Part shown: piece by piece, positions 35,317-49,912 of the stretch
Layout of the letters: every line of letters starts with the position of its first letter
How positions within the stretch are numbered: the first letter of the stretch is position 1
From: Stappia taiwanensis
GTDB taxonomy: Bacteria; Pseudomonadota; Alphaproteobacteria; Rhizobiales; Stappiaceae
Assembly (NCBI RefSeq): GCF_014635285.1
Contig: NZ_BMCR01000008.1
Coordinates: 124,001-188,000 of the forward strand
Reading direction: 5' to 3'
Length of the DNA stretch: 64,000 bases
The notes under the pieces: model-generated
What the model saw: the letters and a program-made list of their open reading frames with translations, nothing else
The model's database searches: none
What the model was told of the DNA's origin: nothing
Translations under genes and position numbers: made by a program

Positions 35317-36366
35317 ATGCGCCCTTCGATTGCCGGACTTCTGTCAGCGGCCCTCACTGCCGGTCTCCTGTTCGGCGCCCTGCCGGCGGCCGCCGCCGAG
35401 GTGACCGTGACCGGTGCCCTCACCTATCCCCAGCGGGTGGCGCTGCCGCCTGACAGCATGGTCAAGGTAGAGCTGCGCGAGATTTCCATCGCCGATCAGG
35501 CGGCACCTGTGCTGGCCGAATACCAGTACCAGGCGGACGGGCGCCAGGTGCCGCTGCCGTTCGAGTTCATTGTCGACGACAGCGCTTTTCAGCCCGGACA
35601 GCGCTACGCGGTGCGTGGCCACATCACCCAACCGGATGGCCGGTTGCTCTGGACCACGGACGAGGTCCATTCGATCGATCCGGGCAAAAGCAAAAACGAC
35701 CTGGGCATGTTGATGCTGGTACGGGTGGAAGATGAGGCCGCCTTGCCGGCCTTCACCGCGGCCGGCAACGAGCCGGGGTGGTCTCTGAAGATGGCAGGAG
35801 ACCGATTCCTGCTGAGCCTCGACTATGGTTCCGACACCACATCCGCGCCGATCGGCGAACCTGAAACCCAAGACAAGACAAAGGCCTATCACACTAGAAC
35901 CGAAGATGGCCGCGACCTCGCCGTGACGATCACCGACGCGCTTTGCCATGACGACATGAGCGGCATGCCCTATCCGATGCGCGTGACCCTTGAGATCGGC
36001 GACCGGTCCCTGAACGGCTGCGGTGGTCGCCCGGCCGATCTCATCATCGGCGCGGCGTGGACGGTGGAAGATATCGGGTCCGCCGGGATCATAGACTTCT
36101 CTAACACCACCCTGGAGTTTACCGCCGACGGCCACCTCTACGGCCGGTCCGGCTGTAACCGCTACAACGCCGGCTACCAATTGACTGGCGAAAGTCTGAC
36201 CGTCGGCCCGGCGGGGGTCACCAACATGGCCTGTGCCCCCGCCCTGATGACCCAGGAGGCGGCCTTCCTGGAGATCCTGAGCGGAGTGCAGCGCTTCGAT
36301 ATCACCAAGGACGGCGCGCTTCGGCTGATCGCGGGCGATGGCCGGACCATCCTCGCCCGCCGCTAG
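35317..36366 (+). CDS. Secreted YbaY/META-domain protein
   Basis: A 349-residue exported protein with three parts. A signal peptide (hydrophobic core GLLSAALTAGLLFGALPAAAA) is cleaved near residue 27. Residues about 28-120 are a YbaY-type beta domain (VTGALTYPQRVALPPDSMVKVELREIS). Residues about 145-245 are a COG3650-like domain ending SLNGCGGRPADL. Residues 250-349 are a META/HslJ domain (LYGRSGCNRYNAGYQLTGESLTVGP with the family's GCNRY and a second Cys in NMACAP). HslJ is linked to envelope stress and novobiocin resistance in E. coli. The fusion suggests an outer-membrane or periplasmic stress protein. It converges with coxM, overlapping by four bases. Confidence 0.8.
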   Translation: MRPSIAGLLSAALTAGLLFGALPAAAAEVTVTGALTYPQRVALPPDSMVKVELREISIADQAAPVLAEYQYQADGRQVPLPFEFIVDDSAFQPGQRYAVRGHITQPDGRLLWTTDEVHSIDPGKSKNDLGMLMLVRVEDEAALPAFTAAGNEPGWSLKMAGDRFLLSLDYGSDTTSAPIGEPETQDKTKAYHTRTEDGRDLAVTITDALCHDDMSGMPYPMRVTLEIGDRSLNGCGGRPADLIIGAAWTVEDIGSAGIIDFSNTTLEFTADGHLYGRSGCNRYNAGYQLTGESLTVGPAGVTNMACAPALMTQEAAFLEILSGVQRFDITKDGALRLIAGDGRTILARR

Positions 36367-37169
36367 GCTCTTTGGCTGATGGCCGCCAGTGCGCGCGCTG
36401 TCAGCACCTTGACGAGATGAGCCCGATAATCGGCCGCCGCGTGGAGGTCTCCCAGCATGTCCTCCACCGGCACCGCCAGCCCGGCCAGCGCCGTTGCGGT
36501 GAACTCGCGGCCGAGCGCCGCTTCCGCCTCGCTCCAGCGAAACACCCCATCCGTTCCGGCGCCGGTCACGGCGATGCGCACGCCATCTTCATGGCGGGCG
36601 AGGAAAACCCCGGCCAGGGCGAAACGTGATGCCGGATTGCGGAACTTCAGATAGGCAGCCTCGCGGCAGCGCGGAAAGGCAACGCTGACGATCAGCTCCC
36701 CCGGTTCCAGCGCGGTATCGAACATGCTGAGGAAGAAGTCATCGGCGTCAATGTCCCGGCGGTCGGTGCGGATCACCGCATTCAGCCCCAGACAGGCCGC
36801 CGGATAATCCGCCGCCGGATCGTTGTTGGCAATCGAACCGCCGATGGTGCCGCGATTGCGCACCTGCGCATCGCCAATCATGCCGGCGAGATCGGCGAGC
36901 GCCGGGCAGGCCGCCCGAACCTCCGGATCGGCGGCAACCACCGCATGGGGGCACATGGCGCCAACCTCCACATGGGTCGGCGTCACCCTCAGGCCCGCCA
37001 GTTCGGCAAGACCGCCCAGATCGATCAGGGTCTCCGGGGCGGCCAGCCCCTGTTTCATGGTCGGCACCAGGGTCTGCCCGCCGGCCAGCGGGCTGGCCTC
37101 GTCCCCCTGACGCAGAAGCGCCAGCGCCTCGGCCAGATCACCCGGTGTCAGATACGCAAAGCCGTTCAT
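36363..37169 (-). CDS. Molybdenum hydroxylase FAD subunit (CoxM-type)
   Basis: A 268-residue medium subunit of a xanthine-dehydrogenase-family hydroxylase. It carries the FAD-binding PCMH fold with [13 protein letters not shown] near residue 29 and the second signature [18 protein letters not shown] near residue 112, typical of CoxM/NdhF-type subunits. It passes electrons from the FeS subunit to the acceptor. It is the last gene of the long minus-strand unit and overlaps coxS-like by four bases, while the matching large subunit lies about 10 kb away at the promoter end. Confidence 0.9.
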
Positions 37170-47612: not shown

Positions 47613-49912
47613 TGATCCACGTTGCTGCGGCGGCCGGCTGCGTCATGCATGGCACGCCAGATTCGTTCGCTGGTGAGCGGCATTTGCAGGCCGCGCACCC
47701 CGAAGGGAGAAAGCGCATCGCCGACCGCGTTGACGATGGCCGCCGGGATGCCGATGCATCCCGCCTCGCCAACGCCCTTGGCGCCGAGCGGATTGGTTGG
47801 GGAGGGTGTTTCGATCTTCTCGATCCGGACCGGGGGAATGTCGGCAGCGCGCGGCACCGCGTAATCCATCAGCGAGCCGGTCAGCATCTGGCCATCCTCG
47901 TCATAGACGATGCGCTCCATCAGCGCTTCGCCGAGGCCCTGCGCCATGCCGCCGACAAGCTGCCCGCGCACCAGCATCGGATTGAGCACCACGCCGGCGT
48001 CATCCACCCAGACCACCTCGTCGATGGTGGGCGTTCCGGTGTCTTCGTCGATGATGACGGAGGCAATGCAGCAGCCGCTGGCCCAGGCCTCGCCATCGGC
48101 GTGGAAGACCACGGAGGAACACAGCGCCGCCTCCTTGGGATCCCCTGTTTCCGGTCCGAGCAGATGCCCGGCCAACGCTTCCCAGGTGGCCATGCGCCCT
48201 TGATCGCTGGCGACGGAAACCCCGGCGTCACCCGGTACGATCTCGTCTTCGCCGCACTGCAGGAGTTCCGCCCCGGCCCGGCGGATCTGCTCCAGCAGCC
48301 CCTCACAGGCCCGGACCATGGCGCCGCCGCCAATCGCGGTACTGCGGCTGGCGAGCGCGCCAATGCCGGTCGGGCTCTCGCCGGTGTCGCCATGGCGCAC
48401 GGTCACCCGCTCCGGCGAGACACGCATCAGATCGGCGACAATCTGCGAAAACGCGGTTTCCCGGCCCTGCCCCTGTGCGCTCGATCCGGTCGCGGCGATG
48501 ATCGTGCCGTCGCGGCAGAGCGACGCGGTGGCGCTCTCCCAGCCCTGGCCGCAGGGCTCGATGTAAAGACTGACGCCGATGCCGAAGATCTTGCCATCCC
48601 GGCGCAGCTCCGCCTGACGGGCACGCAGGGCGTCGTAGCCGGCATGATGCCGCGCCATGTCGACCAAAGCTTGATAGTTGCCGGAATCAAGCGTTTCGCC
48701 GGTCGGCGTCGCATAGGGGAAAGCGTCGGCGGCAATCAGATTGCGCCGGCGGAACTCCAGCGGATCGAGCGACAGGACGCGAGCGGCCTCGTCCATCAGC
48801 CGCTCCATCAGCATGGTCGCTTCCGGCCGGCCGGCGCCGCGATAAATGCCAACGGCCGCGCGATTGGCGAAATACCCTTTCGCGCCGATATCGATGTCCT
48901 CGACCCGATAGGGCCCGGGCAGGATCCGCCCGGCGTTGCGGGCCGGGATCACCGCGCTGAACGGCATCCAGCTTCCGAGCTGGAAGGCGAGCTTCGCCCG
49001 CAGCCCCAAAACCGTGCCGTCGGCGGCAACAGCCAGCTCGCCGGAGGTGGTGGCACCGCGCCCGTGGGTTGCCGCCAGAAGGTCGTCGCTGCGGGTGGCG
49101 CACCACTTGACCGGCGCACCGAGCCGGCGCGCGGCAAAGGCCACCATCACATCCTCGGGATAGATCGATGCCTTGCCGCCGAAGGCCCCGCCCACATCCG
49201 GCGCGATCACGCGGACCTGCGCCAGCGGCAAAGCCAGCATGCGGGCGAGATCATCCCGCGCCCGGTGCGGCGTCTGGGTCGAGAGCCAGGCGGTCAGCCG
49301 CCCCTCCCGCCAGTCGGCCAGCGCGGCGCGCGGCTCCAGCGCCATCGGCGCCAGCAGGGAGTGCTCAACCGTGACGCCAACCACATGATCGGCGGCTGCG
49401 AAGGCCGCATCCGCATCGCCGGACCGCCAGTCATGGCTCAGCACCTCGGGGGTCAGGACCTCCGGGCGGTCCTCTCCCGAGGCAACGGACAAGGGCTCGA
49501 TGTCCAGTCCGGCGAGCTGCGCCGCGTCGCGGGCAATCGCCCGTGAGGTGGCGACAATCGCCGCGACCGGCTGGCCGACCGCCTCGACCCGCTCCGCCGC
49601 CAGCACATGCATCGGCTGCGGGCGGACATCGGGGATCAGAAGATTGATTGCCGCAGCGCCGAGACCGGCAAGATCGGCCGCGGTGAAAACCGCCACCACA
49701 CCATCGAGGGCGCGGGCCTCCTCCAGATCCAGCTCGACGATCTCGCCATGGGCGAACTGGCTGCGGACGAATTCCAGATGAAGGCAGCCCTCCGGGGTCA
49801 GATCGTCGACATAGCGGCCCTGGCCGGTGACAAGCCGCCGGTCCTCGCGCCGGCGCAGGGCCTCACCCATCCAGCTCTTTCCGGCCTTGTCGATCTGTCC
49901 GTTCGCGTCCAA
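47609..49912 (-). CDS. Molybdenum hydroxylase large subunit (xanthine dehydrogenase family)
   Basis: A 767-residue molybdopterin-binding subunit, full length for CoxL-like proteins. GGAFGGK is at residues 241-247, IYRGAGRPEA at 356-365 (the active-site loop) and the catalytic-base region GVGEAGCIG near residue 735. The loop is the YRGAGR form, not the CSFR form of true CO dehydrogenase, so CO oxidation is unlikely and hydroxylation of an N-heteroaromatic or other aromatic is favoured. It is first gene of the minus-strand unit, divergent from a LysR gene, while its small and medium subunits lie at the other end of the same unit. Confidence 0.92.
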   Translation of the reverse strand: MDANGQIDKAGKSWMGEALRRREDRRLVTGQGRYVDDLTPEGCLHLEFVRSQFAHGEIVELDLEEARALDGVVAVFTAADLAGLGAAAINLLIPDVRPQPMHVLAAERVEAVGQPVAAIVATSRAIARDAAQLAGLDIEPLSVASGEDRPEVLTPEVLSHDWRSGDADAAFAAADHVVGVTVEHSLLAPMALEPRAALADWREGRLTAWLSTQTPHRARDDLARMLALPLAQVRVIAPDVGGAFGGKASIYPEDVMVAFAARRLGAPVKWCATRSDDLLAATHGRGATTSGELAVAADGTVLGLRAKLAFQLGSWMPFSAVIPARNAGRILPGPYRVEDIDIGAKGYFANRAAVGIYRGAGRPEATMLMERLMDEAARVLSLDPLEFRRRNLIAADAFPYATPTGETLDSGNYQALVDMARHHAGYDALRARQAELRRDGKIFGIGVSLYIEPCGQGWESATASLCRDGTIIAATGSSAQGQGRETAFSQIVADLMRVSPERVTVRHGDTGESPTGIGALASRSTAIGGGAMVRACEGLLEQIRRAGAELLQCGEDEIVPGDAGVSVASDQGRMATWEALAGHLLGPETGDPKEAALCSSVVFHADGEAWASGCCIASVIIDEDTGTPTIDEVVWVDDAGVVLNPMLVRGQLVGGMAQGLGEALMERIVYDEDGQMLTGSLMDYAVPRAADIPPVRIEKIETPSPTNPLGAKGVGEAGCIGIPAAIVNAVGDALSPFGVRGLQMPLTSERIWRAMHDAAGRRSNVDQ

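Follow-up and report, generated by a model that had tools for sequence, protein, structure and literature searches.

A probable gene cluster for 3-hydroxyanthranilate breakdown in Stappia taiwanensis and its relatives, with a candidate route that bypasses ACMSD

A stretch of 64,000 nucleotides from Stappia taiwanensis (contig NZ_BMCR01000008.1, positions 124,001 to 188,000; hereafter, the window) contains a unit of 14 genes, in which the gene for 3-hydroxyanthranilate 3,4-dioxygenase (HAAO) is accompanied by those for a DapA-like lyase, a three-subunit molybdenum (Mo) enzyme, an L-aspartate dehydrogenase-like protein (NadX), and an ABC importer. The gene cluster is common to many marine and soil bacteria. 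The unit is probably an operon for the breakdown of 3-hydroxyanthranilate (3-HAA), with kynureninase and the importer as suppliers; in the explanation that we favour, the HAAO product 2-amino-3-carboxymuconate semialdehyde (ACMS) would be oxidised and then split by the DapA-like aldolase, and NadX would yield aspartate. The link of the cluster to 3-HAA and the bypass of the ACMS decarboxylase (ACMSD) are well supported. The first-pass annotation of the window had described an uptake-and-catabolism unit for an aromatic compound, probably a nitrogen-bearing one, and the gene families and their co-occurrence agree with that description.

Ring cleavage, co-occurrence and the canonical pathway

The window HAAO scored above the NCBIfam equivalog cut-offs (TIGR03037, 268.4 against 145.95 bits; NF009763, 275.3 against 220 bits) and matched the solved bacterial HAAO 1yfu (E 1.5e-73), with identity at six of six positions (Arg47, His51, Glu57, His95, Arg99, and Glu110) which we take to be the metal and substrate residues of HAAO. 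By curated score and residue alignment, it is a genuine NbaC-type enzyme. Strict HAAO motifs were complete in 67 of 94 related loci. These loci comprise the 80 of 401 whose HAAO is most similar to that of the window and 14 plasmid loci hand-picked from 77 records (L093-L096 are likely canonical controls), and the samples lean to close relatives of the window HAAO.

Three kinds of genes may supply 3-HAA to such clusters. The kynureninase gene near the unit (TIGR01814, 312 bits; cut-off, 246.4) has a counterpart elsewhere in the genome (C3:301607-302761), and on the same contig (G000 C3, L177:7563-13729) kynureninase and tryptophan dioxygenase genes precede a formamidase-like gene and genes resembling Liv transporters, both named by eye (the former from its opening residues); since this pair lies on another contig, the kynureninase beside the unit is a second copy. 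One of the searches bearing on this pair covered the 37 genomes with HAAO or DapA-like genes. In five gammaproteobacterial bins (four titled Woeseiaceae, plus L062), HAAO, kynureninase, FAD monooxygenase, NAD-aldehyde dehydrogenase (ALDH), and DapA-like genes are clustered, with NadX in four of the five. The monooxygenase gene of L077, which directly follows kynureninase in a cluster with HAAO, NadX, ALDH, and DapA-like genes, was the only member compared with solved structures; its product is nearest to kynurenine 3-monooxygenase (KMO; E 3e-92), its NCBIfam match was VioC below the cut-off, and homologues occur in L057, L062, L089, and L090. On one rhizobial plasmid (L098), a DUF4863 gene matches Pfam PnbB (4-hydroxylaminobenzoate lyase) and is accompanied by FMN and flavin reductases, and on another (L097) annotated DUF4863 and flavin reductase genes stand beside the cluster; NbaB (2-hydroxylaminobenzoate mutase) presumably belongs with the PnbB family. 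The mutase step of the 2-nitrobenzoate route yields 3-HAA according to an excerpt of PMC5817917, and the branch leading to 3-HAA is described in PMC9302171. With three different likely sources (kynureninase, KMO-like, and PnbB-family genes), 3-HAA is the likely substrate. Thus, among the substrates named in the first-pass annotation (3-HAA, quinolinate, or an N-heteroaromatic), 3-HAA is the best supported for ring cleavage, and quinolinate belongs to an unlikely alternative weighed below.

Of the 385 class genomes sampled, 23 had the DapA-like gene (E 1e-60), 36 had HAAO (E 1e-40), and 22 had both (Fisher p 2e-25, uncorrected for descent), so that the set is not a chance one. Failure of these genes to co-occur in other genomes had been named beforehand as grounds for rejecting the unit; their co-occurrence is strong, and HAAO is present in 22/23 genomes with the DapA-like gene against 36/385 overall. 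Because the two genes lie on different contigs in several genomes, their link is more than adjacency. The 80 loci were retrieved by HAAO alone, and 63 of them carry the DapA-like gene within the stretch. As for the other 17 (including L010, whose annotated DapA gene is cut by the stretch edge), the gene was found elsewhere in 10 genomes, adjoining a Mo gene in seven of these; the genomes without it are those of seven loci, namely five metagenome bins and two (L056 and L069) with canonical markers. Genome-level searches covered the locus genomes except L061 and L086.

The canonical 3-HAA/2-nitrobenzoate (nba/onb) pathway likewise opens the ring with HAAO to give ACMS, and then proceeds through ACMSD, AMSDH, a deaminase, and a meta-cleavage lower path (excerpt of PMC5817917). 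In contrast, the window and its relatives have the Mo enzyme or ALDH, the DapA-like lyase, and NadX. At the set thresholds, ACMSD, AMSDH, and deaminase markers were found in 0/72 loci with the DapA-like gene and not in the window, and no ACMSD homologue was found in the window's own genome at E 1e-30. Of the 385 genomes, 80 (all 37 with HAAO or the DapA-like gene, and 43 hand-chosen) were searched for ACMSD, Mo, ALDH, NadX, and kynureninase genes; strong ACMSD (at least 52% identity) was found in five, always beside HAAO and never with the DapA-like gene. A canonical-like cluster is annotated in Streptomyces (L096). Among the open-licence papers listed by literature searches, no description of the proposed pathway was found.

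A molybdenum enzyme and an aldehyde dehydrogenase in the same position

With thresholds of at least 45% identity for the Mo large subunit and at least 58% for ALDH, the 94 loci comprised 21 with Mo, 48 with ALDH, 25 with neither, and 0 with both (Fisher p 1.5e-8, uncorrected for descent). ALDH, which is unrelated to the Mo enzyme, is interchangeable with it across the relatives' clusters, judging from gene content and position. The Mo gene lies less than 300 bases upstream of the DapA-like gene in 16/16 loci with both, and 17 of 47 ALDH genes occupy this slot in the same direction. In Nitratireductor, the position between the same LysR and DapA-like genes is filled by Mo in L016 and L020 and by ALDH in L021 and L030. 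On the tree of 95 DapA-like sequences (13 rows unlabelled; labels of L102-L123 partly from whole-genome matches, with L123 labelled Mo at 41% identity), the Mo/ALDH label changes 11 times, and at least five changes are forced by supported branches. Among the matches listed for the 80 genomes, a Mo orthologue (at least 47%) was present in 16/23 genomes with the DapA-like gene and 0/57 without it; an ALDH orthologue (at least 60%) was present in 3/23 and 1/57, respectively, and never with Mo. Where the cluster has neither, ALDH was found elsewhere in 6/10 genomes (66-80% identity), as against 1/13 Mo genomes.

The Mo hydroxylases (CoxL-like proteins, glyceraldehyde dehydrogenase, and quinoline oxidoreductase) share the three-subunit organisation and the domains of the window enzyme, which differs in its split operon and in its exchange for ALDH in relatives. 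The best NCBIfam match of the large subunit was the glyceraldehyde dehydrogenase alpha subunit (612.8 bits, under the cut-off of 790). Identification as CO dehydrogenase (CODH; CoxL) was rejected (445.5 against 991 bits); the motif YRGAGR, which we take to differ from the CODH loop, is present in 20/21 Mo loci. The nearest specifically named solved relative of ALDH is 2-oxoglutarate-semialdehyde dehydrogenase; a cysteine motif matched 1/48 ALDH sequences and was discarded as a bad pattern. Aldehyde dehydrogenases and Mo hydroxylases share a reaction type, the conversion of an aldehyde to an acid. Since Mo is swapped for ALDH (17 times in the same slot) and the two are never co-located in the 94 loci, the exchange points to aldehyde oxidation. 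From the sequence comparisons, hydroxylation beside a ring nitrogen, as the first-pass annotation had proposed for the Mo enzyme, seems less likely.

An FeS gene (at least 50% identity) was not found in 15/21 Mo loci within the stretch read, some stretches being short; in these loci (L008, L012, L029, L040-L042, L053, L058, L063, L067, L070, L078, L082, L086, and L091), no FAD-subunit match was found in the stretch either. The CoxG gene occurs in 3/94 loci, each with a Mo gene. The succinate-semialdehyde dehydrogenase gene at 60804-62267 of the window was rejected as a missing ALDH; its product passes TIGR01780 and has 37% identity to the cluster ALDH, and the gene adjoins GABA transaminase.

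The proposed route and its alternatives

The DapA-like protein has the TIM-barrel NAL/DHDPS fold and a Schiff-base lysine (Lys178, kept in 95/95 sequences), as expected for the class-I aldolase superfamily. It reads GKQGE, with Leu/His at the usual tyrosine pair; a GTTGE-type motif is, we assume, the usual form in this superfamily (DapA, N-acetylneuraminate lyase, hydratase-aldolases, and KdgD). An excerpt of PMC13398020 lists a hydratase-aldolase in the superfamily, and also dehydratases, one of them decarboxylating. Hydratase-aldolases were not named among the 50 fold matches listed for the DapA-like protein, which excludes nothing. The NadX-like protein passes NF009828 (234.9 against 177 bits), as an L-aspartate dehydrogenase should, and matches the solved L-aspartate dehydrogenase 2dc1 (E 8e-29), and an Asn-x-His site was found in 62/62 homologues (loose pattern). 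Unlike the known enzyme, it is encoded beside HAAO in a catabolic cluster and not with NAD-synthesis genes. It is present in 50/63 loci with the DapA-like gene against 1/17 without it.

From the gene families, their co-occurrence, the Mo/ALDH interchange, and the ACMSD absence, all established from sequence evidence, we infer the chemical steps after HAAO, products included. HAAO would open the 3-HAA ring to ACMS, whose aldehyde would be oxidised without decarboxylation by the Mo enzyme (NAD-aldehyde dehydrogenase in many relatives) to 2-amino-3-carboxymuconate; ACMS would thus be spared both decarboxylation by ACMSD and closure to quinolinate. The DapA-like class-I aldolase would then hydrate the imine tautomer and cleave it by a retro-aldol reaction into iminoaspartate/oxaloacetate (C4) and malonate semialdehyde (C3), with the balance C7H7NO6 + H2O = C4H5NO4 + C3H4O3. 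Iminoaspartate is a substrate of NadX, which would convert it to L-aspartate. With this route, four enzymes would be enough, and the lack of ACMSD, AMSDH, and deaminase markers would be accounted for. The kynurenine pathway branches at ACMS, and it is at this point that quinolinate, a neurotoxic compound, is formed. According to an excerpt of a 2023 review (PMC10143591), ACMS is an unstable aldehyde with two fates, decarboxylation and spontaneous closure of the ring to quinolinate. The chances are about even that the cluster represents a third enzymatic fate, namely oxidation without decarboxylation, after which an aldol cleavage would release malonate semialdehyde and, by way of iminoaspartate, aspartate.

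Several observations weigh against this route. As for the lyase, the DapA-like protein is below every NCBIfam cut-off (best, 90.7 against 281 bits; DapA model, 89.9 against 206), and its superfamily also holds dehydratases and decarboxylases. NadX is missing from 13/63 loci and 4/23 genomes with the DapA-like gene, and homologues occur in 19/57 genomes without it. The closest solved relative of the Mo large subunit is CoxL and the second is quinoline 2-oxidoreductase (E 5e-127), so that ring hydroxylation is compatible with homology; the best NCBIfam model of ALDH is succinate-semialdehyde dehydrogenase (below the cut-off). Once descent is taken into account, the opposition of Mo and ALDH depends on seven supported independent pairs; ALDH stood opposite Mo in a mean of 5.1 of these and never together with it, with a median p of 0.06. 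Neither Mo nor ALDH is near the DapA-like gene in 10/63 loci, and in 4/10 such genomes a genome-wide search, made for ALDH only, did not find it; among the matches listed for the 80 genomes, three (G060, G224, and G366) had no orthologue of either, and one (G339) had only a 41% Mo match. The DapA-like gene is absent from the stretch in 5/21 Mo loci. With respect to ACMSD, 9/36 HAAO genomes have neither the DapA-like gene nor strong ACMSD, 14 further genomes, three of them with the DapA-like gene, encode amidohydrolases with a weak likeness to ACMSD (28-37%), and L064 has an ACMSD-like protein at 30%. Finally, one of 13 Mo genomes, that of Mesorhizobium soli NHI-8 (L032), has both Mo and ALDH. 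In another strain of this species (L028), ALDH is present and the surroundings of the cluster contain no Mo gene; the two strains are possibly a snapshot of enzyme replacement.

An alternative use of the same proteins, which we consider unlikely, is ring closure of ACMS to quinolinate, followed by hydroxylation at C6 by the Mo enzyme, ring opening by a hydrolase, and cleavage by the DapA-like protein. The C6 position is the former aldehyde carbon, and the hydroxylation product would be the lactam of the same dicarboxylate, so that Mo and ALDH would still reach an equal oxidation level; the cyclisation of ACMS is spontaneous (excerpt of PMC10143591), and the kinship with quinoline 2-oxidoreductase fits. 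However, ALDH should not act on quinolinate, yet it occupies the Mo slot, and a literature search for a bacterial quinolinate route turned up nothing related. Moreover, a lactam hydrolase would be required. The MBL-fold hydrolase of the unit, related to organophosphate hydrolases and lactonases of solved structure, is encoded in only 10/63 loci with the DapA-like gene and is not tied to Mo (3/14 Mo, 6/39 ALDH, and 1/10 neither). Given this spread over both oxidiser classes, it was rejected as a core enzyme; the gene is optional, so hydrolysis, which the first-pass annotation counted among the steps, is not a core step.

It is also improbable, to a similar degree, that the genes are non-orthologous parts of the known pathway, in which the DapA-like protein would decarboxylate ACMS, Mo or ALDH would oxidise 2-aminomuconate semialdehyde, and the lower meta-cleavage path would be encoded elsewhere. 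KdgD belongs to the superfamily of the DapA-like protein, catalyses both dehydration and decarboxylation of its substrate (excerpt of PMC13398020), and is among the best sub-threshold NCBIfam matches of the DapA-like protein; ALDH resembles the dehydrogenase acting after KdgD, and strong ACMSD never occurs where the DapA-like gene does. Nevertheless, this would leave no role for NadX, and the deaminase and AMSDH markers are absent from all 72 loci noted above, though canonical clusters hold them together. That another aminophenol-carboxylate is the substrate, with the nearby kynureninase incidental, is very unlikely: kynureninase is near only 10/63 loci with the DapA-like gene and the importers differ among clusters (Liv and other ABC, TRAP, and tripartite tricarboxylate types), but the HAAO scores exceed equivalog cut-offs, and kynureninase, KMO-like, and PnbB-family genes recur across different lineages.

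Gene unit, neighbouring genes and significance

The 14 genes (36363-49912, all on the minus strand) are in the order reported by the first-pass annotation, and its remark on many overlaps also stands, with overlaps at 7 of 13 junctions and a largest gap of about 160 bases (Table 1). Ten genes were named by NCBIfam/Pfam scans and the four Liv genes by open reading frames (ORFs) and homologues; trimmed starts were used. Three genes just beyond the unit (LysR, alpha/beta hydrolase, and kynureninase) were absent from that annotation.

Table 1. Features of the gene unit and its neighbours in the window.
Feature	Position	Strand	Basis
Mo hydroxylase-family large subunit (XDH/CoxL-like), proposed ACMS aldehyde oxidoreductase	47609-49912	-	PF02738, PF20256, PF01315
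DapA-like class-I aldolase-fold lyase, Schiff-base Lys178, proposed hydratase-aldolase	46653-47612	-	
HAAO, 3-hydroxyanthranilate 3,4-dioxygenase (NbaC)	46049-46600	-	TIGR03037, NF009763; 1yfu
Periplasmic binding protein 2 (Liv type)	44811-45977	-	PF13458 (Peripla_BP_6)
MBL-fold hydrolase, optional gene	43859-44845	-	PF00753
Periplasmic binding protein 1 (Liv type)	42531-43697	-	PF13458 (Peripla_BP_6)
LivH permease	41532-42449	-	ORF; homologues in relatives
LivM permease	40496-41548	-	ORF; homologues in relatives
LivG ATPase	39741-40499 (start trimmed)	-	ORF; homologues
LivF ATPase	39046-39747	-	ORF; homologues
NadX-like L-aspartate dehydrogenase	38226-39059	-	NF009828, PF01958; 2dc1
CoxG-like accessory protein	37658-38146	-	PF06240
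[2Fe-2S] small subunit, Mo enzyme	37166-37636	-	PF01799, PF00111
FAD medium subunit, Mo enzyme	36363-37169	-	PF00941
LysR regulator, divergent	50051-50962	+	PF00126, PF03466
Alpha/beta hydrolase (BD-FAE/Abhydrolase_3)	50967-51878	-	
Kynureninase, genome's second copy	51992-53272	-	TIGR01814

Stappia indica, the nearest named relative found (HAAO, 99%), has the identical gene order, including kynureninase. The alpha/beta hydrolase, with homologues in 30/63 loci with the DapA-like gene, is possibly a formamidase. Past the far end of the unit lies a UbiX-type flavin prenyltransferase gene (33924-34493), which was rejected as a member; other genes intervene, and it was not seen in the 94 relatives' stretches.

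The following was noted in related loci. In 18 loci (L015-L017, L019-L025, L030, L031, L034-L038, and L085), genes for an FAD monooxygenase and a PcaD-like hydrolase lie upstream of the HAAO-DapA cluster; the monooxygenase compared (L025:6066-8070) has 2-methyl-3-hydroxypyridine-5-carboxylate oxygenase as its nearest match (E 8e-78), a hint of a second module that opens pyridine rings. In Nitratireductor aquimarinus, HAAO occurs in two clusters (L018 and L163); one of them includes Mo and lacks the DapA-like gene, and the other includes DapA-like and NadX genes. In Ruegeria (L048), HAAO adjoins TRAP transporter and dihydropyrimidine-dehydrogenase-like genes, and the DapA-like and Mo genes are elsewhere in the genome.

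If the proposed route is correct, the DapA-like family, so far annotated only as 'dihydrodipicolinate synthase family', would gain a function, and the cluster would offer a clean example of an operon slot in which an NAD enzyme has taken the place of a Mo enzyme. It would add a route for tryptophan and 2-nitrobenzoate, with a marker gene in about 6% of the class genomes sampled (23/385). The third fate of ACMS would retain the nitrogen of the ring as part of an amino acid and avoid quinolinate, with two interchangeable oxidisers, and would be almost the mirror image of the way in which bacteria make quinolinate from iminoaspartate.

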